Part shown: piece after piece, positions 2,729-64,000 of the stretch
Layout of the letters: the number at the start of each line of letters is the position of its first letter
How positions within the stretch are numbered: the first letter of the stretch is position 1
Origin: Mytilus galloprovincialis
Lineage: Eukaryota; Mollusca; Bivalvia; Mytilida; Mytilidae
Direction of reading: 5' to 3'
NCBI RefSeq assembly: GCF_965363235.1
Contig: NC_134844.1
Coordinates: 20,442,646 to 20,506,645, forward strand
Length of the DNA: 64,000 bases
Made by a program: the position numbers and the translations under genes
The notes under the pieces: generated by a model
What the model was told of the DNA's origin: nothing
Databases searched by the model: none
The model's input: only the letters and a program-made list of their open reading frames with translations

Positions 2729-5700
2729 TCATATTGTTCCATTTGGAAGCTTCAGTGTTTTATGTTCCTCATCATTTGTGTTATCGTCATCTAGTCCTGT
2801 AATATTCCAGTTGTGAAGGATTTCTTTGGCTTTGTTTAGGGTTTCATCAGTCTACAATTAGATTTAAATCTGGGATTATAATAAGTGGTAAATAAACCAT
2901 TGCAACTGTCTAGGATATTTCTATCAAATATATATTAATAATAAATTCATAGAATTTTGTCAAACTTTATTTTTTCATTTTTAGCTCACCTGGCCCGAAG
3001 GGCCAAGTGAGCTTTTCCCATCACTTTGCGTCTGGCGTCCGGCGTCCGGCTTCGTCGTTAACGTTTACAAAAATCTTCTCTGAAACTGCTTGGCCAAATT
3101 AAACCAAACTTGTCCACAATCATCATTGGGGTATCTAGTTTAAAAAATGTGTCCGGTGACCCGGCCAACCAACCAAGATGGCCGCCATGGCTAAAAATAG
3201 AACATAGGGGTAAAATGCAGTTTTTGGCTTATAACTCAAAAACCAAAGCATTTAGAGCAAATCTGATATGGGGGTAAAATTGTTCATCAGGTCAAAATCT
3301 ATCTGCCCTGAAATTTTCAGATGAATCAGACATTCCGTTGTTGGGTTGCTGCCCCTGAAATGGTAATTTTAAGGAAATTTTGCTGTTTTTGGTTATTATC
3401 TTGAATATTATTATAGATAGAGATAAACTGTAAACAGCAATAATGTTCAGCAAAGTAAGATCTACAAATAAGTCAACATGACCAAAATGGTCAGTTGACC
3501 ATTTTAGGAGTTATTGCCCTTTATAGTAAATTTTTAACCATTTTTCGTAAATCTTAGTAATATTTTAGAAAAATCTTCTCCTCTGAAACTACTGGGCCAA
3601 ATTTAACCAAACTTAGCCATAATCATCATTGGGTATCTAGTTAAAAAAATGTGTCCGGTAACTCGGCCAACAAACCAAGATGGCCACCATGGCTAAAAAT
3701 AGAACATGGGGGTAAAATGCAGTTTTTGGCTTATAACTCAAAAACCAAAGCATTAAGAGCAAATCTGACAGGAAGTAAAATTGTTGATCAGGTCACGATC
3801 TATCTGCCCTGGAATTTTCAGATGAATTGGATAATGGGTTGTTAGGTTGCTGCCCCTGAATTGGTAATTTTGAGGAAATTTTGCTGTTTTTTTGTTGTTA
3901 TTATCTTGAATATTATTATAGATAGAGATAAACTGTAAACAGCAATAATGTACAGCAAAGTAAGTACTAAAAATAAGTCAGTATGACCAAAATAGTCAAT
4001 CGACCCCCTAAGGAGTTATTGCCCTTCATAGTCAATTTTTAACAATTTTCTTAAAATTTGAAGATTTTCAATAACATTTTCCACAGAAAGTACTGTTATA
4101 GATAGAGATAATTTTAAGCAGCAAGAATGTTAAGCAAAGTAAGATCTACAAACACATCACCATCACCAAAACACAATTTTGTCATGAATCCATCTGTGTC
4201 CATTGTTTAATATTCACATAGTCCAAGGTGAGCGACACAGGCTCTTTAGAGCCTCTAGTTAGATAATTGCATGACTTTAATTCTTATGTAAAATTATGTC
4301 AATATTTGCTTCTATTCCTGGTCTTGCAGGAGTCATATAACTTTCGAGAACGATAACTGTACTTGTACTCAGAAATCAACCAATCAAAGTCCTGGATTTG
4401 GGGTTATTTTTTTGCACAAATTTTGTACTTCGAGTTCTTCTTCTTCTTCTTTAAGGTCAACAAGGCTTCAATACTGAAGAATACATGTTCTGAGTAAAGT
4501 TTTATGACCGAGAGCCCAGATGAAAGTTAACTAGAATTTGTTGTTAACCTTTTAGATAATATGAAACTACCAAAACATAAAAGTTTATCGTCACTGGGTA
4601 AAATTTAAAAGCAGAAAGACAACACATACATATTCCTAACGAGAAGTTTTTAAATGTGCTACTATAGTGAGTACTTACCTTGACAAAGCAGATTCTCACA
4701 TACTTTTCTCCTAGATATTTATGTTCTTGGCTGTAACATATAGAGACTGGCATTGCACAGAATTTCTAAAACAACAATTAATTAATAATAGAAGTTTGTA
4801 ATAATATAGAAGTGGATCATCCGATGTGAGTAATTATACTGCCTTCATCAATGAGACAACCCATATTGTTTAGTCCACTATGATATGCCCTAACATAATA
4901 AATGTAAAAGAATTCAAACCAGGGAATTATGGTAACTTCCTAATTAATAACAAAACAATTTATGAAAAATGAACTGATGAAAACCACTGAATTACAGGGT
5001 CATTAACCTACAAATCATAATTTATTATAATTTTTTCCGAACTTTAGCCTACAAAAAATAATTCTGTGTAATAGTATTGTCCATAAAAGTAGTGCAATAG
5101 TTATAGAATTGAGAATGTGTCAAAGAGACAAAGAGCAGAAAACAGTCCTAGGCCACCAATAAGTCCTCAACACAGAAAATCCTGCTCCAGATTTTGGCTG
5201 GAATGAATAAGGTTATTTTATAGTATTTGCTCTTAAACCTAAGAAATACCATTATGGTATAGTATTTGCCATTTAACCTATAAAATAATACTATCATGTT
5301 ATAGTGTTGTCCCTCTATGCCACAATGTAAGAAATACTGTCATGTTATAGTATAGGCTCTATAATCTAGGCAATTATGTTATATTAAGTTTTGGACCTTT
5401 AATCTTGAAATACTATTTATATGGTATATTATTTGCCTTTTAACCTATAAAATAATAACTACTATGTTATAGTGTTAGCCCTTTATGGTTGGAATGACTA
5501 TTATGGACTTTTTAATAACCTTGAAATACCATTATGGTATAGTATTGGCCCTTTAACCTATGATATAATACTGAAGGGGAATTGACACTTAAACCTAGGA
5601 ATAATACTGTTATAATATTGTCCATTTAACCTGGGAAATACTGCTATTTTCAACATAGGAAATACTGCTATGGTATAATATTTTCAATTTAGCCTAGGAA

Positions 5701-7317
5701 ATACTGCAATTCTATAGTATTGTCTTTTTAATCAAGTCAATACTCCTTATATATAACATGATGATCCTTTTAACTTTACATTAAGTAATGCTAATACTTT
5801 GGAACAGTAGTGTTAATTTAACTAGGGAAATACTACTATGGTTTAGTATTGTCCCTTTTAGCAAGTAGTATTGTCCACTTAGCATAGGAAATACGTTTAT
5901 GATATAGTAATATAAAAAAGATGATGTGGTATGATTGCCAATGAGACAACTGTCCACAAGATACCAAAATGACACAGACATTAACAACTATAGGTCACCG
6001 TACGGCCTTCAACATGAACAAAGCCCATACCGCATAGTCAGCTATAAAAGGCCCCGATATGACAATGTAAAACAATTCAAACAAGAAAACTAACGGCCTT
6101 ATTTGTATAAATAAAATGAACGAAAAACAAATATGTACACATAAACAAACGACAACCACTGAATAACAGGCTCCTGACTTGGTCATTTGACTTAGGAACT
6201 AATACAATGATATGATATTGCCTACTAAACGTAAGAGATACTTCTTTGGTGCAGATCTAACCACGGAAATACTACTATGATAATATTGCCCATACCCGTT
6301 TTAATATAAAGTTACCTTTTTGTGTATTGCCCATTTGACAAATTTGTAATCATATGCCTGACCATCTTCATCTCTTGTCACACAACCATTGGTATCTAAA
6401 TTAAAAACACAGATTTAATTAAAATATGTACAACGATTTTTGTGCCCAATCTAGCACCCACTTTAAGGGCAAGGAAGAAGCCATTATTGCCATCTGATTA
6501 AAATCGGCTGTTAGTTTTCGTTAGGATACTATCCGCACAAAGAGCGTATCACAACATCGGTTTATGAGACTATATTCAATTGAATTTGATAGTAAGCTCC
6601 TGGTAGAAGGGAACCTGATTGAAATGTTCAAAGATCGATTTGACTCAACACATTCTCCTCTTTATGTAGTAGAACAAGTAAGAAATTACCACCATAAAGT
6701 AACATAATTAGAACCATGGAAATAGTACATTCATACATGTATATCATCCCGCATATTAAAATGACATCATGCAGAAATGCAACCAATGTGTAACTTCTTA
6801 TTTTAAATTTTTTGTTAATATCCAAAATCAAAGTTGTAGAAAACATTTTATCAGAATCATTTGGTAAAAAGTAAAATTACAAAAATAACGAACTCAGAAG
6901 AAATTTCTAAACGGAAGACCCTAAGCAAATGGCAAAATCAAAAGCTCAAACACTGCAAACGAATGGATATATCCATGCAACTATTGTCTCCTCCATGCCA
7001 GTCTTGAACATAAAAACATAATTTTAAATATACTGCACTAATAATTTTTAGTGTTCCTAAAAGATTGCTGTCATTGTAAACCACAGTTGAACATAGAACT
7101 CACGGGCACTCGCCTCAGAAAAAAAAATCGGTATATAGGATTTTTATTTCTGAGACGAGTGCCAGTGATAGAACTGTATGGGAAAAACAGCTACTATTTT
7201 GTCAAAAAACACTGTCAAACATTCAAACATAATATCCATACTGATCTGTGTTCACACTTGTGTAGTAGAAACAAAAATATTATAGGTGAAAAATGTAAAA
7301 ATGTAAACAATATCTAA

Positions 7318-7349
<32 letters not shown>

Positions 7350-10300
7350 ATAGATTTGAAAGGTAGGAAATTTTGAATTAAAAGATACTTGGAGAAATAT
7401 AGTATCTACTAATAGAAGTATACTGTCAAACAATTGAAATGTATTGTGTTCCTACCGAGCTTTGATATATCTGCTACAATGAAATAGCCACCTTCAGGCA
7501 CTACTACAGTAATTCCTGCCTCACTGAGGTATTTACACAGTAGATCACGCTTTATTTCCATATCCCGTGGGAGAGAGCTAAAATAACATTCTGACGAACC
7601 AAGGCGGGATAATTCTGTCTCTAATGATACAGCAATAGCTTCCTGTAAAATGAAGAATTCATAATTGGTAAATTATAAACGATTTTTATGCCCCATGTAT
7701 GGGCATTACGTTTTCTGGTTAATGCGTACATTCGTTCGTCCGTCCGTCTATCCCGCTTCATGTTAAAGTTTTTGGTCAGGGTAGTTTTTGATGAAGTAAA
7801 AGTCCTATCAATTTGAAACTTAGTACAGATGTTCCTTATGATATGATCTTTTTAAATTTGATGCCAAATTAGAGTTTTGACCCCAATTTCACGGTCCATT
7901 GAACATAAAAAATAATAGTGCGATTGGGGCATCCGTGTACTATGGACACATTCTTGTTTTTCAATTTATGCAACGTTATATAAAGGTATATAGGTATTAT
8001 TTTTCAGAGCAAGTGCCTATGTCATGTAAGCTGCCATTCTGATGTATTTGGTCTAGCTAGGTATTACCCATGCAAGGAATTTCTTCGTTAAAAGGGGATA
8101 TACTATTCTAATGCTACTTGAAATGAATTTTGTACATACCTGAGTTGGAGTAGGATTAGTCCTTAGTACTGCATCATGGATAGTCTTAATACCCTGGATA
8201 AGGTTTGCGGGACCTACAGCCCAACCGACTTTCCAACCAGTGACACTAAACGTCTTCCCAGCACTGCCTATTGTAACTGTTCTATCCCACATACCAGGTA
8301 AAGTTGCTGAAAACATATTATTTAGTCTGATCTTTACAAGCAGAAACATAGGTAAAGGTTTTATTTAATAAACTGCACATTCCGGACCCAATTCAAATAA
8401 GAGAAGTTCTTGTAACAATATTTCTTCGAGTCACAATAGATCTTATGTATAATCAGATTACGTCTGAACATTTTTCCCAAAAAAAAATATTCAGCAGCTT
8501 TAGTATTAGTATCATCACGAAAAACAAAAGATGGAACTCAATTTAAAAAGGAGTTAAGGATGATTTAATAAGATGTCAGTTAATTTGTACTGCTAACCTC
8601 CAAGTTCTTTCCGTGTGATAATAAAAGAGAAACTTACCAATTCGAATATGCTTTTTCCCATCATATATAAGCCATTCATAGACTTCATCAGCAATACACA
8701 TCACATCATGCTCATTACACAACTCAGAAATCAGGTTCAGCTCATCAAATGTAAACACCTGTAATATACAAATGCCCCTTTTATGTCAGTCAGCACCCTT
8801 AGGAAAAGTTCTGGATCCGCCACTGGTTATCGAAAAAGATATAGTAAAGTTGGCAAGTTTGAAATTTGATAGTTGGTTGCTTGCTTAAAGTCCAGTGGCA
8901 ACTATTTCTTGCAAGTTTAGGACGAAAACAAAAAGATGAAAAAAAAAACATTAGGTACTTGTTGTAATTACGGTATTTTGGGGGTCAAGGAAATTTCGAC
9001 TGCCACTGGAAAATGGGGATATATTGGAAAGGGAAAATAATTTGACCTTGGGACAGGCCACCTACTAGGCTACAGACCCTTCAAGACTTGTTGCAAGGAT
9101 TCTTGACATGCAGATAGCATGGCTATCTCTCTAAATGAGGCATCGTATTTAGCGTACCTGATCTGACCGAACGTGATTGTGTATTTGCTACATCCCGCAC
9201 AGCCATACGGACACCACACGTTGGCGAAGTTTTTACTGTCGGTCGGAGAACGACCAATGATGACAATAGTTCTATTCGTCAGTCACATTTGAAGTTAAAT
9301 GTCACAGCTGATATATAGAACTATTTCAATAGATTTCTGGACATATCTTCGTTCCACCTGAATTATAACCTGGACCGATAGCTTTATCTTTCAGACCACT
9401 GATAGGATCACAGTTAATGTATTGAAATAGTTCAGGGGCACATCTTGCATTTCTCACTTCTGCCACAAACAATGACTTTTAGTTGTTTCAAATATGCAGT
9501 GACCATGACGGTTCGTAGATGTTCACAAAGGGGTACAGATGCCCCTACACCCGAAATTTTGTACCACTGAATTGCCATGACCTCTCCAGAAAGTCATAAA
9601 TATGAGAGAGAAAAAAATAAGAAGATGTGGTATAATTGCCAACGAAACATCTCTCCTTCAGAGACCAAATGATAAAGGTCCCAATACGGCCTTAAACATG
9701 GAGCAAAATCCATATCGCATATAGTAAACTATAAAAGACGCCAAAATGACAGATGTAGAACAATTCAAACGGGAACGAGAGCTGATTTAAAGTTAAACCG
9801 TGTAAATCATTTTATGGAATTATACGCACCTTTCCAAGTGGATTCGATGGGTTGTTGACCACTATAGCTTTTGTCTTACTATTGAAGGCTTCTCTTATCT
9901 GACTAGTGTCAAATGTCCAGTCTTCGCTGCCCGTGACACTTTTACAAGTATTTGTCTACAATAAATAGAAATATCACTCGCACTTATTCTAAGGACATAA
10001 TATGAGACAGAATGGTGATAAAAAGGCAGTAAATTGTTTGTCTAAAGATTGCTACTTATGAAGGAAGAAGACTGAATAATCTATATATTAAAGACAGATG
10101 CCTTATGGTTTGAGATTTCTGTCTGACAAATGTATGTTTTTTTAAAAATAATTATACATAATATATTAAGTTGACATATGACATACTCACCATTCTAAGT
10201 GGTATGTAGACAGGCACAGCACCTGCTAAACGCAACATTTCTTTATATGGTTCATAAAATGGTTCAATCAGTATAACCTAAAATGATTCAGAAAACCATA

Positions 10301-14289: not shown

Positions 14290-14765
14290 CAAAAGGATTT
14301 TCAAGGATTGAATGAAGAAAAAGAACACTTTCTTTTCAAGAATAAATGAAGAAAACTTGAAGAAAAACTTGAAAGCTTATAAAATGGAAAATGTTTCAAC
14401 GAGCTTGATTTTCCAATACCTGTGAGAGAGATTGCAAATGCCATATCAAAGATTAAAAAGAACAAATCTCCAGATTTGGATAAAATCACAAATAACATGA
14501 TAAAATGTAGTCAGTCAGCTCTCTTTAATGTTTTCAGAAGCTATTTAATGTCTGTTTAAGCTCAGAAATATACCCTACAAGCTGGGCAGAGGGTTACATA
14601 ACACCATTACATAAAGCACATAATATTCCTGATCCAAACGACTATCGTGGATGGACAATTACAAGCTCGATAGGCAAATTATTTAATTGTGTTTTAAATT
14701 CATGTCTTCACAAATTTTTAATTAAATTTACTATCATAGATGAGTGTCAAATTGTGTTTTTTTCT
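14290..14765 (+). pseudogene. LINE-type reverse transcriptase fragment with a frameshift
   Basis: The first frame reads FPIPVREIANAISKIKKNKS and then PDLDKITNNMIK. After a shift near 14540 the next frame reads SWAEGYITPLHKAHNIPDPN, DYRGWTITSSIGKLFNCVL and ends IIDECQIVFF. The order (KNKS-DLDKI, W-EG-I-PLHK, NDYRG, GKLFN, EcQ) is that of the N-terminal palm/fingers of non-LTR retrotransposon RTs of the RTE/CR1/Jockey type. The catalytic YxDD segment is missing, because another repeat starts at about 14764. It is 5' of KYAT on the opposite strand. Confidence 0.8.
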
Positions 14766-15140
14766 GGCCCCGCAACGAAGTTGTCGGTGCCATATAGTTT
14801 TACCCTTGTCCGTCTTTCCGTAATTTCGTCATTCCGTCATTCCGTCATTCCGCAACAAACCATTATACGGAGTTTTTTTTCTAAACGCCTTCTTATATAT
14901 ATGTTATCTCACTAACTTCAAACTGGGTCGATTTGCGCTTTTTAGCAATTGTTTTTTTTCTGATTTCATCTGTTGTCTACTTTTTTTTTTTAACAAAAAC
15001 GTATGTTAATTTGACACTTTAGATTGCTTTGTATGTTCACTTTCTAGATTATTGTTGAAGGGCGTACGGTGATCTATAGTTGCTAACTTTCTACATTGTT
15101 TTGTCCTTGGTTGATGAGTTTCCTGATTGGCAATCATACC
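14766..15140. repeat. Dispersed repeat ends plus a family A fragment
   Basis: ctggccccgcaacgaagttg with ccgtcattccgtcattccg repeats (to about 14880) looks like the end of another dispersed element. From about 15050, gaagggcgtacggtgatcta and tttcctgattggcaatcata are a minus-strand family A fragment. Confidence 0.5.
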
Positions 15141-16844: not shown

Positions 16845-17558
16845 TTAACGTTGCACTGTCTGTGGTGATACGCTGCTGTAGAACTTCTGACTATAACCAG
16901 GATACACACACGGTAACATACCACACATAGACGGCGAGAACACAGGAAACGGCGAGTATGACTGCTGACTAAAGTTACTATTCAATTCCATTATTCTTGA
17001 ACCAGGTTTGCCGACACCAACGAACTGTGATAATTCTGGTGAACCGTGGTAGCCGGTTCTTTTGATGTGACGTTTTTCTTTCATTCTTCGATTCTGGAAC
17101 CACCATTTAATTTTGTGCTGACTGAGTTTGAGTTTCTTGGCGAGTACTGGTCGATCTTCAAGCTGGAGGTATTTGCTGTTACCGTAGTATCTCTCTAGTT
17201 CTAACAGTTGTGAGTTTGTGAAGGGAACTCTCGCTCTCTTTGTTGGTTGATCGGACTTGGCCGAGTTGTCGGAGGACGAACCAGGCGACAAACAATCTTT
17301 TGATTCGGAGTCTGTAGAGCTAAAACTGTTATCATCTGAGTCATCGAGTCGTTTCCTCTTGCATCGCAGACGATGCGTTGAGATGGTTAGCGGAAGAATC
17401 ATATCTGCTGTAATTGGCTGGTTGATGTTTTGTAGATATTTGTCGTGGATATGGTTGACAACTGCATCAGTACAGACGGGATCCACAATCCTGCTGCTCT
17501 TTGATAGTTCTTCAATACTGAAGGACATCCTGGTTGGAACGTTTTGTTGATAAGCCAT
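16845..17558 (-). CDS. Divergent homeobox transcription factor, copy 1 (single exon)
   Basis: 237-aa nuclear DNA-binding protein. N-terminal FSIEELSKS (about residues 13-21) resembles an eh1-type Groucho-binding motif. Then come a basic patch (CKRKR), a Ser/Asp/Glu-rich linker (75-100), a homeodomain at 106-165 and a Tyr/Pro/Ser-rich tail. Canonical positions hold: Phe8, Leu16, Trp48, Phe49, Asn51, Arg53. The recognition helix reads KIKWWFQNRRMK, so position 47 is Trp where Ile or Val is usual. Helix I (FTNSQLLELE) recalls Hox2/Hox3-like ANTP proteins and the end (RRMKEKR) recalls Evx. The subfamily is not assigned. The Met at 17558 is the shared start of both copies and follows a TATA-like box by 72 bp. 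The frame is intact. Confidence 0.9.
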   Translation of the reverse strand: MAYQQNVPTRMSFSIEELSKSSRIVDPVCTDAVVNHIHDKYLQNINQPITADMILPLTISTHRLRCKRKRLDDSDDNSFSSTDSESKDCLSPGSSSDNSAKSDQPTKRARVPFTNSQLLELERYYGNSKYLQLEDRPVLAKKLKLSQHKIKWWFQNRRMKEKRHIKRTGYHGSPELSQFVGVGKPGSRIMELNSNFSQQSYSPFPVFSPSMCGMLPCVYPGYSQKFYSSVSPQTVQR

Positions 17559-17698
17559 TTGTATATATTACTAGTAGTAGATCACTGTGTGAGGACACTG
17601 ACAATGAGCTGCTCTTGTCATTTTACTTGTTTTATATTCTCTTGTGTTAATTACTCATAACGAGTCATAACGGTTCTTGTCAAAACAATTCAGTGGTC
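17559..17698 (-). promoter_or_regulatory. Upstream block 1 of homeobox copy 1 (duplicated)
   Basis: 140 bp directly 5' of the start codon. It differs from the matching block of copy 2 (21788-21929) by three substitutions and a 2-bp indel. It contains a TATA-like box (17630-17636) and ttaattactcataacgagtc. It most likely covers the core promoter and 5' UTR. Confidence 0.7.
17630..17636 (-). promoter_or_regulatory. TATA-like box, homeobox copy 1
   Basis: TATAAAA on the minus strand, 72 bp upstream of the ATG and identical in copy 2. This fits a 5' UTR of about 40-45 nt. Confidence 0.5.
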
Positions 17699-17826: not shown

Positions 17827-17992
17827 ATTGTTGTGCCATCCAAGCTAACATCATGTGATGGGTAGTTATGCCACCCAAGCTAAGATCATTTGATGGTTAG
17901 TTATGCCATCCAAGCTAACATCATTTAATGGGTAGTTATGCCATCAAAGCTAAGATCCATTTGATGGATAGTTATGCCACCCAGTTAGCTAA
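17827..17992. repeat. Minisatellite upstream of homeobox copy 1
   Basis: Four to five units of about 37 bp: ttatgccacccaagctaa, catcatttgatgggtag. The same array, shorter, lies upstream of copy 2 (22037-22150), so it was part of the duplicated segment. Confidence 0.8.
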
Positions 17993-21103: not shown

Positions 21104-21787
21104 CTACTGACTATAACCAGGATACACACACGGTAACATACCACTCATAGACGGTGAAAACATAGGGTACGGCGAGTATGACTGCTGACTAATGTTATTA
21201 TTCAATTCCATTATTCTTGAACCAGGTTTGCCGACACCAACGAACTGTGATAATTCTAGAGAACCGTGGTAGGCAGTAGTTTTGATGAGACGTTTTTCTT
21301 TCATTCTTCGATTCTGGAACCACCATTTAATTTTATGCTGACTGAGTTTGAGTTTCTTGGCGAGTACTGGTCGATCTTCAATCTGGAGGTATTTCCTGTC
21401 ACTGTAGTATTGCTCTAGTTCCAACAGCTGTGAGTTTGTGAAGGTAGTTCTGGCTCTCTTTGTTGGTTGATCGGACTTGGATGAATTGTCGGACGAGGAA
21501 CCAGGTGAAGAACAATCTCTTGAATCGGAATCTGTAGAGCTGGTACTGTTGTCATCAGAATGTAATGAGTCGTCTTGTCGTTTCCTCTTGGACTGTGGAC
21601 ATCGAGTCGAGATGATAATTGGATGGTTCGTGTCTGCTATACATGACTGTCTGCTGTTAGGAAGATATATGTCGTGTATATGGTTGACAACTGCATCAGT
21701 ACAGACGGGATCAATGATCCTGCTGCTCTTTGATAGTTCTTCAACACTGAAGGACATCTTGGTTGGAACGTTCTGTTGATAGGCCAT
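21104..21787 (-). CDS. Divergent homeobox transcription factor, copy 2 (single exon, shortened tail)
   Basis: 227-aa tandem paralogue of the gene at 16845-17558, about 4.2 kb away on the same strand. Same layout: FSVEELSKS motif, KRKR patch, acidic/Ser linker and a homeodomain at 109-168 with the same unusual KIKWWFQNRRMK helix. About nine substitutions separate the two homeodomains (for example VPFT to TTFT, RYYGNSKY to QYYSDRKY), while helix III is identical. It ends at TAG (21104-21106) where copy 1 has AAG. Beyond it the frame still encodes FYSSVSPQTVQ, so the tail was lost here or gained in copy 1. Expression is inferred only from the intact frame and shared promoter. Confidence 0.88.
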   Translation of the reverse strand: MAYQQNVPTKMSFSVEELSKSSRIIDPVCTDAVVNHIHDIYLPNSRQSCIADTNHPIIISTRCPQSKRKRQDDSLHSDDNSTSSTDSDSRDCSSPGSSSDNSSKSDQPTKRARTTFTNSQLLELEQYYSDRKYLQIEDRPVLAKKLKLSQHKIKWWFQNRRMKEKRLIKTTAYHGSLELSQFVGVGKPGSRIMELNNNISQQSYSPYPMFSPSMSGMLPCVYPGYSQ

Positions 21788-21929
21788 TTGTATATATTAC
21801 TAGTAGAAGATCACTGTGTGAGGACACTTTGACAATGAGCTGCTCTTGTCATTTTACTTGTTTTATATTCTCTTGTGTTAATTACTCATAACGAGTCATA
21901 ATGGTTCTTGTCAAAACAAATCAGTGGTC
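21788..21929 (-). promoter_or_regulatory. Upstream block 1 of homeobox copy 2
   Basis: 142 bp matching 17559-17698 (three substitutions, one 2-bp indel), with a TATA-like box at 21861-21867, 74 bp from the ATG. Confidence 0.7.
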
Positions 21930-22025: not shown

Positions 22026-22036
22026 TTCATTTGATA

Positions 22037-22150
22037 GAGTTATGCCACCCAAGCTTACATCATTTAATAGGTAGTTATGCCACCCAAGCTAACATCATTT
22101 AATAGATAGTTATGCCACCGTGCTAACACTATTTAATAGGCAGTTATTCC
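22037..22150. repeat. Minisatellite upstream of homeobox copy 2
   Basis: Three units of gttatgccacccaagctaa plus catcatttaatag; the counterpart of 17827-17992. Confidence 0.8.
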
Positions 22151-22365
22151 ATTCAACATATATACAAATAAGCATTCACTAATATAACCAGTCTTTTACT
22201 CTCGTAACATTGAAGTTAGTATTTTTAATTATTTACCGTATCTTTTTCTTTTCAATAAATTAAAAATTAAGAAATGATTATTATCCAGCCTTTAACGTTT
22301 TTTTAAGAAAGGTAACTTCCGAACAGATAAATTTTCATCATTTTCTATTTGACATTATTTGCATC

Positions 22366-57900: not shown

Positions 57901-60900
57901 TCAGAATGAAAAATATCTTGAGCTAACAGCGAAGCTTTTGGATGCCAGAGAAGAAGCAGTTCAAGCTAAACTAGAGGGAGCCAAATCTAGACAGAAAGAA
58001 ATATCAAATAATATAAGAAAACTAGTTCAAGGTACATTTTTCAGTTTTCATAATGGTAAATATATTTGTAATACACAGAAACTTTGCTATGTAAATGAAC
58101 TGGAAGCAGAATAATCAATTGAGGAAATTTTGTAGATAAATCAATTTTTGTTCTGTCCATAATAATGTAAGCATCCCCAGTATTTTTATTTGAAGTAGAA
58201 AGCTACAGTTATTACATGTGTAACTGTTAGTTCAAAATTCTATGACTATAATTTTGCACTTTCTTAAAGGATAAAAATGAAAACAAACTGGAGGGGCCCT
58301 GAAGGTCTTACAATACATAAAATGAAAAAAAAGACAGGCAATGAGTTAAACTAGTGGTCAACTTAATCAATTGAAAATCATGTGTTCTTTAAATAAAAAT
58401 TATCTTCTGATATGTTGTAGAAATGAATGCTATAGAGGAAGATAGCAGGTTTAACCCAGCTGTAAAAATAAAAGACCTAGAAAAGGAAAAGATTAATGAA
58501 TCGGGTGATCAAGGACAGGCATCAACAGTTATACAGTCACATGACACACCATGTGATCAGGGACTGGCAGCATCACTTAGTCAGTCACATGACAAACCAT
58601 CTTTACCATGTCAGCAGGATGAATCACCAGATGAACAAGAGGAGTCAGAAGACTTTGGTGATGCATTTACTATGTTTGAAAATCAAGCTGCAGAAGAAAA
58701 ACCAAAAGGTAAGAAATACAGTTGGAACAAGTACTTATAGATTATCGTTGATCATCTCAACGAGATTGATTTTCTCGCTTGAGCTGGTACAGCGAAAGTG
58801 AGAAAAGCAATCGAGTTGAGATGACCAATGATAATCTGTTTATCGCTATTTTATCTATGACGACGTTGTCAATTTCATGTCAATTTCGTAAGCAACGCCA
58901 CGTGGCCTCCTTAGTTTCTAGCGATAATTTTTCCATCTCAAGCGAGAGGCATGATATGAAAATTATCACAAAAAAACATCAAAAGAAAAATGCACAAAAT
59001 AGCGATAAACATGGTTATTACAAAATAAACTGTTTAATATATATATGCTAAATAGGGGAGTTTGATCCAGATTTCATGGTTTTCTGAACATGGAAATGTC
59101 ATATTGTTCTATTGACATATATTCTTGTTTTTTTTAGAAATTGCCATTGCTTTATTTAAAGCACTGTTTAAATTAGAAAATACAGAGCAATTCATAGGAG
59201 TTTATAATGTGAGGACTGGTTTTCCCAAATGTATACTAAATTTGAAATTTAATCACGCATTTATATGAATCCGGCCATATAGTTCATTTAATCATTTAAA
59301 ATAAAAATGATAAGATTTGAACAAAATGAGATTTGAACCCATTCACATTTTCTCATTAACTAAGACAAAGTATTCATATATGAATGTACAGTTTGTTTAT
59401 TTATATATATTTACAGAACCTAAGATTGATTTGAGCCAACTAGATATCAGACAATTTGAGTACACTCGGCAACAGTGGACTGGTAAATCTCCTAAACAGT
59501 TTCTCATAGATTGGTGTCGAAAACATAAAGTTGATTCTCCAAAGTATCATAAAATGAACCCTGTCAGAAATCTGTGGAAATGCAGGTATGATATAGTTGA
59601 AGTAAAATAATGGCATTGCAGAAGGGAGGGGGGGATGGAACATTCAGTAAAAGACCAAAGATTATCTTTAATGATTTATTAGTGAGGCCACCCCTTAACA
59701 TATTCTTTGTTTATGTACAGTTGGGAAGGTAGGTAGATTTTTTTTTTTAAATTTCGAACATCATAAGTTACAAGTTTGTGAATAAGATATTGCAAAATGA
59801 AGGCTGTATAATATTTTTGCTGGTTTTTTTTTCAGAGTGACAATAGGAAGAAAGAAAGAAGAAACTATTGAAGCTTGTCCTGATATTCTATGTGAAAATG
59901 TGAAAGAAGCTGAGCATTTGGGATGTACTCTGGCATTATATCAATTATGTAAGGGACAGGTAAGAAGACTGTTAATTAGTATCATTTGTGCTATTATATT
60001 CATCACTCTTACATTACTGAATAGCTGGTATGATAAAAGATTACTACTACGAACAACTGATATATGATTTAATTATTTTCTTCAATACATTTTTAACCAG
60101 ATTTTTGTGTCAAAAATGTCGATTATTGATTTGGGGATGTACGGCGGTCGAGCAGGCGGGCGTTTGTGCGGGCGGCAACCAAATGTTGTCCGTTCATTTA
60201 CTCATGAAGCGTTCAACCAAACCTTTTAAAATTTTAATATGTTGTTACTGACAACAAAATGGAGGTCAAGTTCAATAATGACGATTTTGACTTTTACTGT
60301 TCAGGAGTTACGGTTCTTGAAAGTTTAAAATATGTGGTGTCCGTGCATTTACTCAAGAACTGTTCAACCAAACCTTTCAAAATTTTAATATGTTGTTACT
60401 GACAACATAACGGAGGTCAAGTTCAATAATGACGATTTTTACTTTTACCGTTCAGGAGTTACGGTTCTTGAAAGTTTAAAAAATGTCGTGTCCATGCGTT
60501 TACTCATGAACCAGTCAACCAAACCTTTTAAAATTTTAATATGTTGTTACTGACAACAAAATGGAGGTCAAGTTCAATAATGACGATTTTGACTTTTACC
60601 GTTCAGGAGTTACGGTTCTTGAAAGTTTAAAAATGTTGTGTCCATGCATTTACTCATGAACCGTTCAACCAAACCTTTTAAAATTTTAATATGTTGTTAC
60701 TGACAACAAAATGGAGGTCAAGTTCAATAATGACGATTTTGACTTTTACCGTTCAGGAGGTCCTTGTAATATTGATAAATGCCAGAACACAAATAAATGT
60801 TAAAGAATCCGGTTTACTGTCATTTTGACAGCTCTTGTTATCTGTAATTATCATCTATAGTATTTTTTGTGGACTTAGATGTTTTTTTGTAGGGGAATGT

Positions 60901-61879
60901 AATGCTTTGCTGCTGTCTAATAAGTATAATCTTTGCATCTTTTTTTTTCATACTTAGTGGCTAACATATGATTTCAAATTAAACCAGAGACAATTTTATA
61001 TGTTAGGCTTTAAATCTTGTCTAGTTGAGACCTACTGTATATAAATATAGTAGTACCTTCAAAAAGTCTGTCTGTCTTATTCTAATATCTGAACAAATCT
61101 TGGATATGTAAAGAATTGTCTTTTATTATGATTGTTTAGGCTATACATCAGTTATTGCCTCCACCGTACAGAGATGTTTGGTTAGAATGGCAGGATTCAG
61201 AGAAAACCAAGGCTAAGGAAGCTCAGACAACAGAAAATAAGGTAAAGTAGTTTTGTAAACACATTGTAAAATTTTACATTTTTTAATTGATTATCAGCAT
61301 TATCAGATCTCTCAGAAATTTTTCATTTAAAGTTTTGAACCTTTTTGCAGAATATCATTTTATGACACATTTTAAATAGAGCAATCATCTAATTGCATTA
61401 AAGTAAACATGATGCTGAACACGTATCAATTGGTGCAATACTGAAAACTTTATATTTATTAAAGATTGCAAGACGTGTTGGAATTCAAAAATCTGAACCA
61501 AAAGAATCATTTGTCTATTTTAGAAAACTTTTCATAAGCTTTGGATGTTAATATTTTGTAGTTAAGTACATGAGAAATGTGTATGTTTTTTACTATTTGC
61601 AGGAAGATTATACCAGAATATTATCCTCATAATGTTATTTTATTGTTATAGCTTACATGTGCTTTAAATGTACTTGTATAAAAATACACTATTTGATAGC
61701 ATGTGTGATTTATCTGCCAATTTACCAGAAGAATTTATTAATTGCAGCCAAGAGATCAGCTTATAACTAAGTTGATGAAGAAATTACAGTTGGGCAGTAA
61801 AAATAGTGAAAATAAGACTACAGAGGGAACCAAAGATGATGATGACACTGTTGACTCATGGGAAAATTTAGAAGAAGAC
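51904..61879 (+). CDS. DHX29: ATP-dependent RNA helicase DHX29, N-terminal 12 exons (gene continues past the right edge)
   Basis: DExH-box helicase that binds the 40S subunit and aids 48S assembly on structured 5' UTRs. CDS exons: 51904-51973, 53917-53975, 54998-55111, 55661-55790, 56548-56714, 57080-57172, 57905-58031, 58421-58708, 59417-59585, 59836-59959, 61140-61241, 61748-61879. Phases all join, giving 525 codons. Visible: MGKKRQQQ start; KTYSL; UBA-like segment FSHSQIEQTMTNTVLHGGDL then DALDWLCLNL; MKDWILQYTE; YLELTAKLLDAREEAV coiled coil; FNPAVKI; WTGKSPKQFLIDW; dsRBD-like part with EHLGCTLALYQLCKGQ and LLPPPYRDVWLEW; RDQLITKLMKKL; DSWENLEED. Human DHX29 has the same order before its helicase core, so motifs I-VI lie outside this window. 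Exon 8 has a local peptide duplication. Confidence 0.95.
51974..53916 (+). other. DHX29 intron 1
   Basis: Contains the inverted-repeat element at 53302-53724. I see nothing else coding in it. Confidence 0.6.
53302..53724. mobile_element. Inverted-repeat element with ~83-bp TIRs and 5-bp TSD
   Basis: caggttggggacaacccacc...gtagtgct at the left is mirrored at the right (agcactatgaaatga to tgtccccaacctg) with few mismatches. TTTAA at 53297-53301 and 53725-53729 is an exact 5-bp duplication. 423 bp. Confidence 0.8.
54473..54748 (+). repeat. Dispersed repeat family C
   Basis: atgccccacctacgatagta, gttaaagtttttggtcaagg, gaacatagaaaatgatagtg, ctatggacacattcttgttt; the same order as 7688-7960. In DHX29 intron 2. 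Confidence 0.75.
57209..57497 (+). repeat. Dispersed repeat family C
   Basis: tatgccccatttataggcat, gtttgtctgtctgtctgtcc, tggtcaaggttgtttttaat, ctatggacacattcttgttt. In DHX29 intron 6. Confidence 0.75.
58739..58839. repeat. Palindromic foldback in DHX29 intron 8
   Basis: agattatcgttgatcatctc / gagatgaccaatgataatct, with the pairing continuing through aacgagattgattttctc. AT-rich and GC-balanced sequence to about 59035 (cacgtggcctccttagtttc, tctcaagcgagagg) is likely the rest of the same repeat. Confidence 0.7.
60190..60770. repeat. Tandem repeat, ~151 bp x 4, DHX29 intron 10
   Basis: Units start near 60190, 60341, 60492 and 60642. Each has catttactcatgaaccgttc, aaccaaaccttttaaaattt, gttgttactgacaacaaaat, ggaggtcaagttcaataatg and gttcaggagttacggttctt. 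Copies differ at a few percent. A GC-richer head (cggcggtcgagcaggcgggc) precedes the first. Confidence 0.9.
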
Positions 61880-62207
61880 GTAAGAATTAGAATTGAGAAA
61901 TTATTTTTTTATAAAGTGAAATTAATTTATGGATTGACTGATTTGTGCTTTGAAAAGGTAGATATTACTTGTTTATTAAGGAAAAAAATATGTCGAAACT
62001 TGTTTCATTTAAACTTTTTTGTACAAAACTACCTTGCTGAACCAATGTTTTAACTTGAAATCTCACAAGCTAACAATTTGCAGAAGACAGAAGTGCCTCT
62101 TCCTTCAGCCACTACCTAGTTGTAATGTGATCAGATTAACCACATCAATAAAACACTTTTATTCAATATAGTGAAGCAAAATATTATAAGATCAACTAAG
62201 GATTGTA
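61880..62207 (+). other. Start of DHX29 intron 12
   Basis: The donor is gtaagaatta at 61880. No further DHX29 exon is seen up to the window end, so this intron is longer than 2.1 kb. The open frame running on from exon 12 to 62053 is intron read-through. Confidence 0.6.
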
Positions 62208-62210
62208 CAT

Positions 62211-62762
62211 CTATAATAGGTTGTCATTTAAATGAAACTTGAGATCCACATTTATATATAAAATGTACCTGACCATACATCTATAATAGGTTGTTATTTA
62301 AATGAGACTTGAGATCCACATTTATATATAAAATGTACCTGACCATACATCTATAATAGGTTGTTATTTAAATGAAACTTGAGATCCACATTTATATATA
62401 AAATGTACCTGACCATACATCTATAATAGGTTGTCATTTAAATGAAAAACGAGATCCACATTTATATATAAAATGTACCTGACCATACATCTATAATAGG
62501 TTGTCATTTAAATTAAACTTGAGATCCACATTTATATATATGTACCTGACCATACATCTATAATAGGTTGTCATTTAAATGAAAAACGAGATCCACATTT
62601 ATATATAAAATGTACCTGACCATACATCTATAATAGGTTGTCATTTAAATTAAACTTGAGATCCACATTTATATATAAAATGTACCTGACCATACATCTA
62701 TAATAGGTTGTTATTTAAATGAAACTTGAGATCCACATTTATATATAAAATGTACCTGACCA
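62211..62762. repeat. 70-bp tandem repeat, 8 units
   Basis: Units start with ctataataggttgtcattta at 62211, 62281, 62351, 62421, 62491, 62558, 62628 and 62698, spaced 70 except one at 67. Identity is very high, so the array is young. Confidence 0.95.
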
Positions 62763-62980
62763 ATGAATAATGAAGGAAAGTGATAAAATACATCAAATAC
62801 GAACAAACAGATTGTGTGATGATCTTAGCAGTTCATTGTTTGAGATTTGAAAAAGGCTGTACCATCAATTATACTGAATATGTTTTTGATATTGCCTATT
62901 GGAATTTGTGTAAACAAATGTATTGTTTAATAATTAAAATTGACAACAACACTTCAAAAGATCTGCAATTTTATTATCTA

Positions 62981-63021
62981 TGTCTACATGTTTCGCCTGC
63001 AAGGCAGGCTTCATCAGGACA
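62981..63021 (-). ncRNA. Minimal hammerhead ribozyme motif, copy 1
   Basis: Minus strand reads TGTC, CTGATGA, A, GCCTGC-CTT-GCAGGC (6-bp perfect stem II), GAAAC, AT, GTA, GACA. This is the hammerhead core: CUGAUGA, stem II, GAAA, a two-pair stem III (A-U, C-G with an AU loop), the GUA cleavage triplet, and stem I from UGUC with GACA. The predicted cut lies between 62985 and 62984. Very short stem III is typical of the retroelement type. Confidence 0.72.
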
Positions 63022-63862
63022 ATTTTTATACAGAAATTGAGCCCCTGAAGTACTCCAAAGTGGTGCATTGAATTTGACGTCGTCATGGTGAGAGAAACAA
63101 TGAAAAGTGAAAGTAGCAATACAGAGTTATAAATAGATAAGATAAATATAGAAAATTAAAGTTTGTATACAATGTAACTTGAGTTTGTTTTACTATTATA
63201 TGATACATGAAATTGTTCTAAAGGCTTGGCATCTAATAGGACGAACTTCCCATGGTTCCTACCACTTCGCAAGGCTTCTCTTCCAACCTGGCCATAGTTG
63301 GAGGTTACTACTTCCCGGCGCGTCGGCAACAATAGGAAGATTATGATCGCCGCTGTGGATAATAAAATCGTCAAAAACTGTACCTTTGTTAATTATTCGG
63401 TGACTCTATATAATTTTTGGATCGTCTGCAGTAGTTGGTCTGTATAATGGCATAGTTGTGAATTCCTGGTTCATTTAAGATTGGCGCCCGTGGTACGTTT
63501 CTTCTGCAATCATTTATATCTGCTATCATTTATAGATGTATAGGTGGTATCGGACATCTTGGTCATCTTGATTCAGTTGTTATTTCGTCGTAAGTATGGA
63601 ATATTCCTTGGTCCATGTATATGCTGGTGGCCTGTAGATCGGCGCTGTTAGCTTGGCGGTTCCTTTCGGATGCAGGGGTTCACGATTAAATAATAAATTA
63701 AATTCCGCGAGGTGAACCAACGCCTGTGACATCGTTTTGGTAGAGTCCCTGAAGTGGATACCTTGGTATGCCGGGTTGTCAAATCATGCAAATGAATGCA
63801 ATCCTTAAATAATAATTAAAATTGACAACAACACTTCAAAAGATCTGCAATTTTATTATCTA

Positions 63863-63903
63863 TGTCTACATGTTTCGCCTGCAAGGCAGGCTTCATCAGG
63901 ACA
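63863..63903 (-). ncRNA. Minimal hammerhead ribozyme motif, copy 2
   Basis: Identical to copy 1 at an offset of 882 bp, with CTGATGA at 63893-63899 and GAAAC at 63872-63876 on the minus strand. Cleavage at both sites would release an 882-nt RNA. Confidence 0.72.
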
Positions 63904-64000
63904 ATTTTTATACAGAAATTGAGCCCCTGAAGTACTCCAAAGTGGTGCATTGAATTTGACGTCGTCATGGTGAGAGAAACAATGAAAAGTGAAAGTAGCA

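Follow-up and report, generated by a model that had tools for sequence, protein, structure and literature searches.

Penelope-like elements (PLEs) with pLTRs, among them those of the rotifer Adineta vaga (PMC3846280) and the lizard element PAc (PMC11167929), have a known layout consisting of an inverted terminal copy, an optional tail at one end and a target duplication (available sections of PMC3846280). How the mirror-image copies are formed is left open in those sections. According to the available text of PMC11167929, PAc cuts and extends both strands of its target, two reverse transcription start sites bound its tail, and its ribozyme is protein-assisted. PLEs also carry minimal hammerheads without helix III, arranged in tandem, for which action as dimers has been proposed (PMC7761336 and PMC6466107, in part), and the accessible portion of PMC7761336 calls the role of these hammerheads a mystery. 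Another group of related systems are the animal non-LTR retrozymes of coral, mussel and axolotl, and PLEs have been proposed as the movers of these retrozymes (PMC7229834).

The element that we compare here with these systems lies at the end of the window, that is, the whole 64,000-nt stretch of Mytilus galloprovincialis DNA that was analysed, and its part within the window (62928..64000, minus strand) runs on to about 65350. Positions 62928-63118 recur without a single difference at 63810-64000 (191 bp), the second copy being cut by the window end, which bears out the direct repeat at an exact 882-bp offset claimed in a preliminary description of this DNA. Repeat comparison delimits a complete 882-bp unit (62928..63809, minus strand) and the start of an identical second one (63810..64000, minus strand), ended by the window edge. 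The complete unit extends from one short (S) site to the next. The S end (62928..62983, minus strand), placed by end scoring, reaches 56 nt past the ribozyme, and an internal copy of the 112-nt tail leading from S to the long (L) end is found at 63698..63809 (minus strand); in each two-armed copy of the family this tail is present at a single end only. A third ribozyme in the opposite orientation is located beyond the window, at window coordinate 65149-65182, the two copies inside the window pointing left and the third one right. The whole insertion, of ~2.4 kb, is bounded by a 14-bp target duplication, AAATGTATTGTTTA, whose left copy (62916..62929, no strand assigned) has its last 2 bp in common with the element end and whose right copy lies outside the window at about 65349-65362. 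The window holds one arm of this insertion, and the direct repeat is half of the structure.

The element adjoins exons of DHX29 on the opposite strand and is probably located in an intron; the antisense position with respect to DHX29 given in the preliminary description is supported by a match of 59380-59607 to DHX29 (E 1.4e-13) and a weak one of 61742-61879 (E 0.09). The spacer between the ribozymes had been described as encoding nothing recognisable, a statement that must be corrected: positions 63643..63783 (minus strand) match the N-terminus of a Penelope ORF, with 44 of 47 residues identical to those of a relative in the same genome. Pfam analysis of the tested ORFs of the unit gave no domain, with only two matches below the cut-offs, and both reverse transcriptase (RT) and GIY-YIG were absent from these ORFs; no match was obtained when the 73-aa ORF that covers the ribozyme was used as a protein query. 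As to the surroundings, a 70-bp AT-rich repeat in eight head-to-tail copies (62206-62762) ends about 165 bp before the insertion, and a 151-bp tandem repeat (60187-60759, 3.8 copies) is situated between DHX29 exons. Two similar long homeobox ORFs, at 16848-17567 and 21107-21796 (minus), have 35-bp tandem repeats near them (17830-17983 and 22027-22151), the close named relatives of the second ORF being Mytilus proteins. By eye, 14383-14912 (plus strand) resembles a LINE reverse transcriptase fragment, and Pfam gave no match there.

Both ribozyme copies read UGUC-CUGAUGA-A-GCCUGC-CUU-GCAGGC-GAAA-CAUGU-A-GACA on the minus strand, and we annotated them as minimal type I hammerheads of predicted activity at 62981..63021 (copy 1, with a 4-bp stem I) and 63863..63903 (copy 2, annotated from the sequence motif plus simulation). 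Cleavage is predicted between 62985 and 62984 in copy 1 and between 63867 and 63866 in copy 2. The conserved hammerhead residues are all present in both copies. Of the hammerheads announced in the preliminary description, the CTGATGA box, the perfect 6-bp stem II, the GAAA, the GTA triplet and the 4-bp stem I stood, while two departures had to be added: one extra A sits between A9 and stem II in both copies (63010 in copy 1), and the stem III hairpin is absent, only the self-complementary ACAUGU (ACATGT) being found between GAAA and the cleavage site. Loop II consists of 3 nt. Since a lone copy has no stem III and two copies together form one of 6 bp, the fold needs two copies, and the palindromic ACAUGU suits dimeric cleavage as far as a motif can indicate it. 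In these traits the mussel motif is like the small dimeric PLE hammerhead variants (Cervera 2014 and Lunse 2017, as described in the available parts of PMC7761336 and PMC6466107), which share the missing helix III, the palindromic loop, the tandem arrangement and the proposed dimer action; it differs from those descriptions in the extra nucleotide between A9 and stem II. The same extra A, between A9 and G10.1, is known from the plus-strand hammerhead of Chrysanthemum chlorotic mottle viroid (CChMVd), a plant viroid and not a retroelement, in which it slows cleavage moderately and a C at this place is very harmful (PMC3705267, in part).

A full motif, defined as the core, a stem II of at least 4 pairs, a self-complementary stem III of at least 4, H17 and a stem I of at least 4, occurred at these two places only in the window and in 0 of 2000 simulated windows built with its dinucleotide make-up; of the core with a 6-pair stem II alone, 60 simulated windows yielded 5 chance occurrences. 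A scan with the plain hammerhead consensus found neither window copy. No Rfam family reached its gathering threshold in the whole window, and hammerhead was absent among the 7 weak matches obtained for 62000-64000 at a relaxed E of up to 10. The preliminary description had named the lack of a match above threshold as the outcome that would overturn its hammerheads; it counts for less because minimal Penelope hammerheads lack helix III, as the accessible text of PMC7761336 describes. Stem I gave no covariation between subfamilies, one of which has U-A as the fourth pair where the other has a mismatch. In folding predictions that leave core contacts outside the model, the two-copy transcript folded as a double hammerhead was less stable by 11.7 kcal/mol than in its free fold. 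The predicted 882-nt circle had a z of +0.63, with 76 of 100 shuffles folding equally well or better; a viroid-like fold was rejected. Hammerhead pattern scans gave 0, 1 and 13 matches in viral_contigs and 5 in genome_contigs. The single viral_contigs match and the 5 from genome_contigs all have a stem II of at most 3 pairs. Among the 13, stem II reaches 6 pairs in four near-identical matches and 5 pairs in another, but a self-complementary stem III is lacking throughout. All of these matches were taken as unrelated.

The 34-nt ribozyme had 152 matches with up to 3 mismatches in the mussel genome, about 100 of them listed individually, against 0 for a reversed control. These dispersed copies rule out a simple local segmental duplication, which the preliminary description had named as another finding that would refute it. 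The genome-wide comparison that it suggested brings out dispersed and multi-unit insertions together with a Penelope-like relative carrying RT and GIY-YIG. Using BLAST against two reference units, 40 loci were resolved into 42 elements, of which 24 were two-armed and 18 one-armed, a proportion that is no frequency estimate, since the presence of several ribozymes largely guided the choice of the first 20 loci. Because loci were seeded on the perfect 34-nt ribozyme, conservation of the ribozyme itself cannot be read from them. All 24 two-armed elements were head-to-head, with the arms pointing outward, and a single insertion carried up to seven ribozymes (locus L046). The same arrangement was seen in opposite-strand ribozyme neighbours, 22 being minus-then-plus and 0 in the reverse order among the 100 listed of 120 places.

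The outer ends fell into two classes, S at about 54-68 nt and L at 167-177 nt past the ribozyme, and each of the 24 two-armed elements had exactly one S and one L end, so that the tail was present at one end only. In this count the right end of L040 was taken as S by eye, the automatic scorer having labelled it otherwise, and the ends of L043a, L043b, L052, L053 and L065 were judged from BLAST segments, the L end of L043b aligning about 13 nt short. Single-armed elements ended at S in 11 cases, at L in 6 and elsewhere in 1 (L047b). Target duplications of at least 11 bp, typically about 13 bp, bounded 18 of the 20 scored two-ended loci, the misses being L040, with its mislabelled end, and L043, where two elements were scored as one. 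In a second search, 15 of 19 loci had a repeat of at least 12 bp at the opposite edge of the element; L032 and L060 had none, L059 had 10 bp, and a repeat about 970 nt away at L057 was left uncounted. As the two ends differ in all 24 two-armed elements, a DNA transposon with terminal inverted repeats was discarded.

A genome search with the 112-nt tail, in which 4 places were opened of 40 scored from 218 candidates, led to a Penelope-like relative at C2:94788200-94792600. It has the ribozyme region, the S site and the tail as in the window unit, after which comes an ORF that agrees with that unit at 44 of its first 47 residues. A 630-aa frame carries RVT_1 (reverse transcriptase; 1.9e-10) and GIY-YIG (3e-6) and is followed by a C2H2 zinc finger ORF (L076:360-1070, minus strand), which stands between the RT-endonuclease ORF and the 3' ribozyme region, the latter again ending at S. 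Upstream, 746 bp are repeated at 100% as a partial direct tandem, and in this copy the reading frame is broken between the first and second ORF. Compared by eye, its hammerhead shows 5 substitutions with respect to the window, at N7, the extra base (A in the window unit, C in the relative), loop II, a C-to-U change that keeps a G-U pair, and H17, all of which appear compatible with the fold. Apart from 22 bp, the central part of the unit (roughly positions 204-729) had no counterpart in this PLE. Four PLE ORF starts taken from a GIY-YIG list and examined as 1-kb pieces contained no hammerhead and no convincing likeness to the unit. A head-to-head order was also seen at other PLE places of this genome: among 147 GIY-YIG matches, obtained from the 150 best of 1001 candidates, neighbours within 8 kb formed 19 minus-plus pairs and 1 plus-minus pair.

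Judged from its sequence, the window element is a non-autonomous, and not an autonomous, Penelope derivative with the known Penelope layout. With the described PLEs (PMC3846280 and PMC11167929, available sections) it shares the head-to-head inverted copy, the tail at one end, the target duplication, the minimal hammerhead near the ORF start and the location of the tail inside the first codons. It differs from them in having no RT or endonuclease and a tail of 112 nt instead of 30-40, and its family in that all 24 two-armed copies bear the tail at one end and one end only and that an insertion can reach seven ribozymes. In the accessible account of PAc the RT start is equal between strands, in contrast to the strict S/L difference of the mussel copies.

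Units within one insertion proved to be uniform. Their spacing is constant within a locus and equal in both arms (894 in L045, 877 in L046 and 879 in L042). Among the 22 complete units, of 877-908 bp, the 15 that belong to the 4 multi-unit loci show zero substitutions or indels within each locus, and in L042, L045 and L046 the two arms contain the same unit sequence, whereas first units compared across loci are 2-75 substitutions apart. Over 23 of the 24 elements, the arms of one locus had 38 mismatches in 12,653 aligned bases, gaps uncounted. L032 and L042 are 4 substitutions apart, though their 4 and 2 units are each uniform; differences common to all units of a locus require a single-unit bottleneck. 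Units that are uniform per locus and different between loci most likely had a single unit as the template of each insertion, and the 882-nt circle proposed in the preliminary description gains indirect support from this pattern, a ligated one-unit circle being what would most simply explain it. The identity test relies on 4 loci, and short-lived or young multimeric source loci, or gene conversion, could mimic the result.

The inner junctions, in contrast to the outer ends, were variable. Inner-end coordinates were obtained by BLAST against the two reference units, so the value of 664 on both sides of L036 and L037 may reflect the reference; both also look symmetric in self-comparison. Of the 24 elements, 16 had a distance of 68-360 nt between the inner ends of their arms; in the other 8 it was at most 36 nt, against about 2 such near-symmetric junctions expected with independent ends. 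When 23 elements were compared with themselves, 11 aligned to their own reverse complement through the centre, the alignments of L029 and L040 being gapped and reaching just 90% and 75%; another 11 showed a loop of 139-355 nt, and no alignment was obtained for L065. Inner ends fell within 3 nt of S or L in 6 of 66 cases against about 1 expected, a category chosen after looking. Two further observations were made at particular loci. L042, L046 and L063 have insertions (+6, +4 and a longer one, respectively) at the S site, confined to the L arm and absent from the internal units. L043a and L043b (L043:691-1488 and 5694-8276), counted as two elements, have a common inner junction and different ends and flanks.

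The one-short-one-long rule and the one-unit-per-insertion pattern suggest, on this comparative evidence, that the template was a circular RNA on which both target strands primed synthesis. Our main reading, to which we give a probability of roughly 60%, is that the element is an internally deleted derivative of an endonuclease-bearing PLE, inserted in antisense orientation, that spread via ribozyme-cut, circularised RNA primed from both strands of the target. A transcript with two or more ribozymes would cut itself through the double hammerhead, by ACAUGU pairing, into unit-length RNA, which would be ligated into a circle. The PLE protein would cut both target strands and each 3' end would prime reverse transcription, one at S and the other at L, 112 nt further. 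The polymerase may travel around the circle more than once, generating tandem units, and would stop at variable points, after which the two cDNAs would be joined head-to-head.

Several results count against this route. Cleavage is called into question by the 11.7 kcal/mol excess of the double hammerhead over the free fold and by the C that the Penelope relative carries at the position where the available text on CChMVd reports such a harmful effect. The circle is argued against by its fold, no better than that of shuffles, and by the in vitro behaviour of PAc: according to the accessible sections of PMC11167929, ribozyme mutants still insert, RNA that has not been processed is described as the main substrate, the cut site is never the start or end of a read, and the ribozyme needs the protein to be active. 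The equal RT start of PAc on both strands, set against the strict difference in the mussel copies, is a further point against the route. The PAc results on insertion also favour a different explanation, according to which existing arrays yield linear tandem transcripts that remain uncut and serve as templates for a non-autonomous PLE, with no role for the ribozyme in insertion and no circle; the ribozymes inside the arms were indeed copied uncut. We nevertheless regard linear copying as unlikely, although it is the kind of alternative that deserves real weight: units identical within 4 loci and 2-75 substitutions apart between loci are not what it predicts, and for L032 and L042 it would need the single-unit bottleneck.

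The junctions bear on fold-back self-priming, in which the first cDNA folds back and copies itself into the inverted arm, and which is the preferred explanation for rotifer Penelope elements in the available part of PMC3846280. The near-symmetric and centre-inverted elements are also expected from self-priming and to that extent weigh against the circle; they leave room for fold-back or for joining at small palindromes. The common junction of L043a and L043b with its different flanks counts against the circular route too. The asymmetric group, on the other hand, with its distant inner ends and loops, speaks against simple fold-back, which alone does not predict that the second arm should end at S when the first starts at L, and we consider it improbable as the general route. 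A canonical animal retrozyme family is a far weaker candidate still, which we hardly credit. The non-coding unit is like those retrozymes (PMC7229834) in being non-autonomous, in its type I hammerhead and tandem units, and in its host, since they occur in M. galloprovincialis. Yet the mussel retrozymes form tandem repeats of 350-390 bp, and the units described here are more than twice as long and outside the 150-450 bp range; the hammerhead is minimal and non-canonical (no stem III hairpin, an extra A, a 3-nt loop II, no Rfam match), a strong circular fold is absent, the arrays are head-to-head, and the PLE ORF remnant and PLE ends provide a direct sequence link to a PLE that contradicts it. 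Of the two origins left side by side in the preliminary description, retrozyme or Penelope-derived, the second is the one favoured, through the ribozyme region, tail and first codons shared with the RT/GIY-YIG relative and through the target duplications and layout; the hammerhead, the unit length and the weak fold turn against the first.

Returning to the circular template primed from both strands, the Penelope layout, the cutting and extension of both target strands and the two start sites that bound the tail were known already (PMC3846280 and PMC11167929, as far as their available sections go). New, from the genomic copies, are the strict rule of one short and one long end and the pattern of one unit per insertion; these, and an RT-less ribozyme element linked to its Penelope, were not found in the literature searched, mostly non-subscription. 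Whether the reading may be extended to Penelope-type elements at large, which would retrotranspose from a ribozyme-made circle copied simultaneously from both cut strands (at S and at L), with rolling-circle synthesis giving identical units in both arms, we can say only tentatively, the odds being somewhat against it. If it is true, two polymerases would have worked on one circle and left their traces in the insertions at the S site of L arms in L042, L046 and L063 and in the arms stopping at S or L. Each copy of this family lends itself to being read as the record of one insertion event, and two sharp rules open to testing follow: an insertion has a short end together with a long one, and it has a single unit sequence. 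In the mussel, an RT-less ribozyme element is tied by sequence to an RT- and endonuclease-bearing Penelope of the same genome, the kind of partnership that PMC7229834 proposed for retrozymes.
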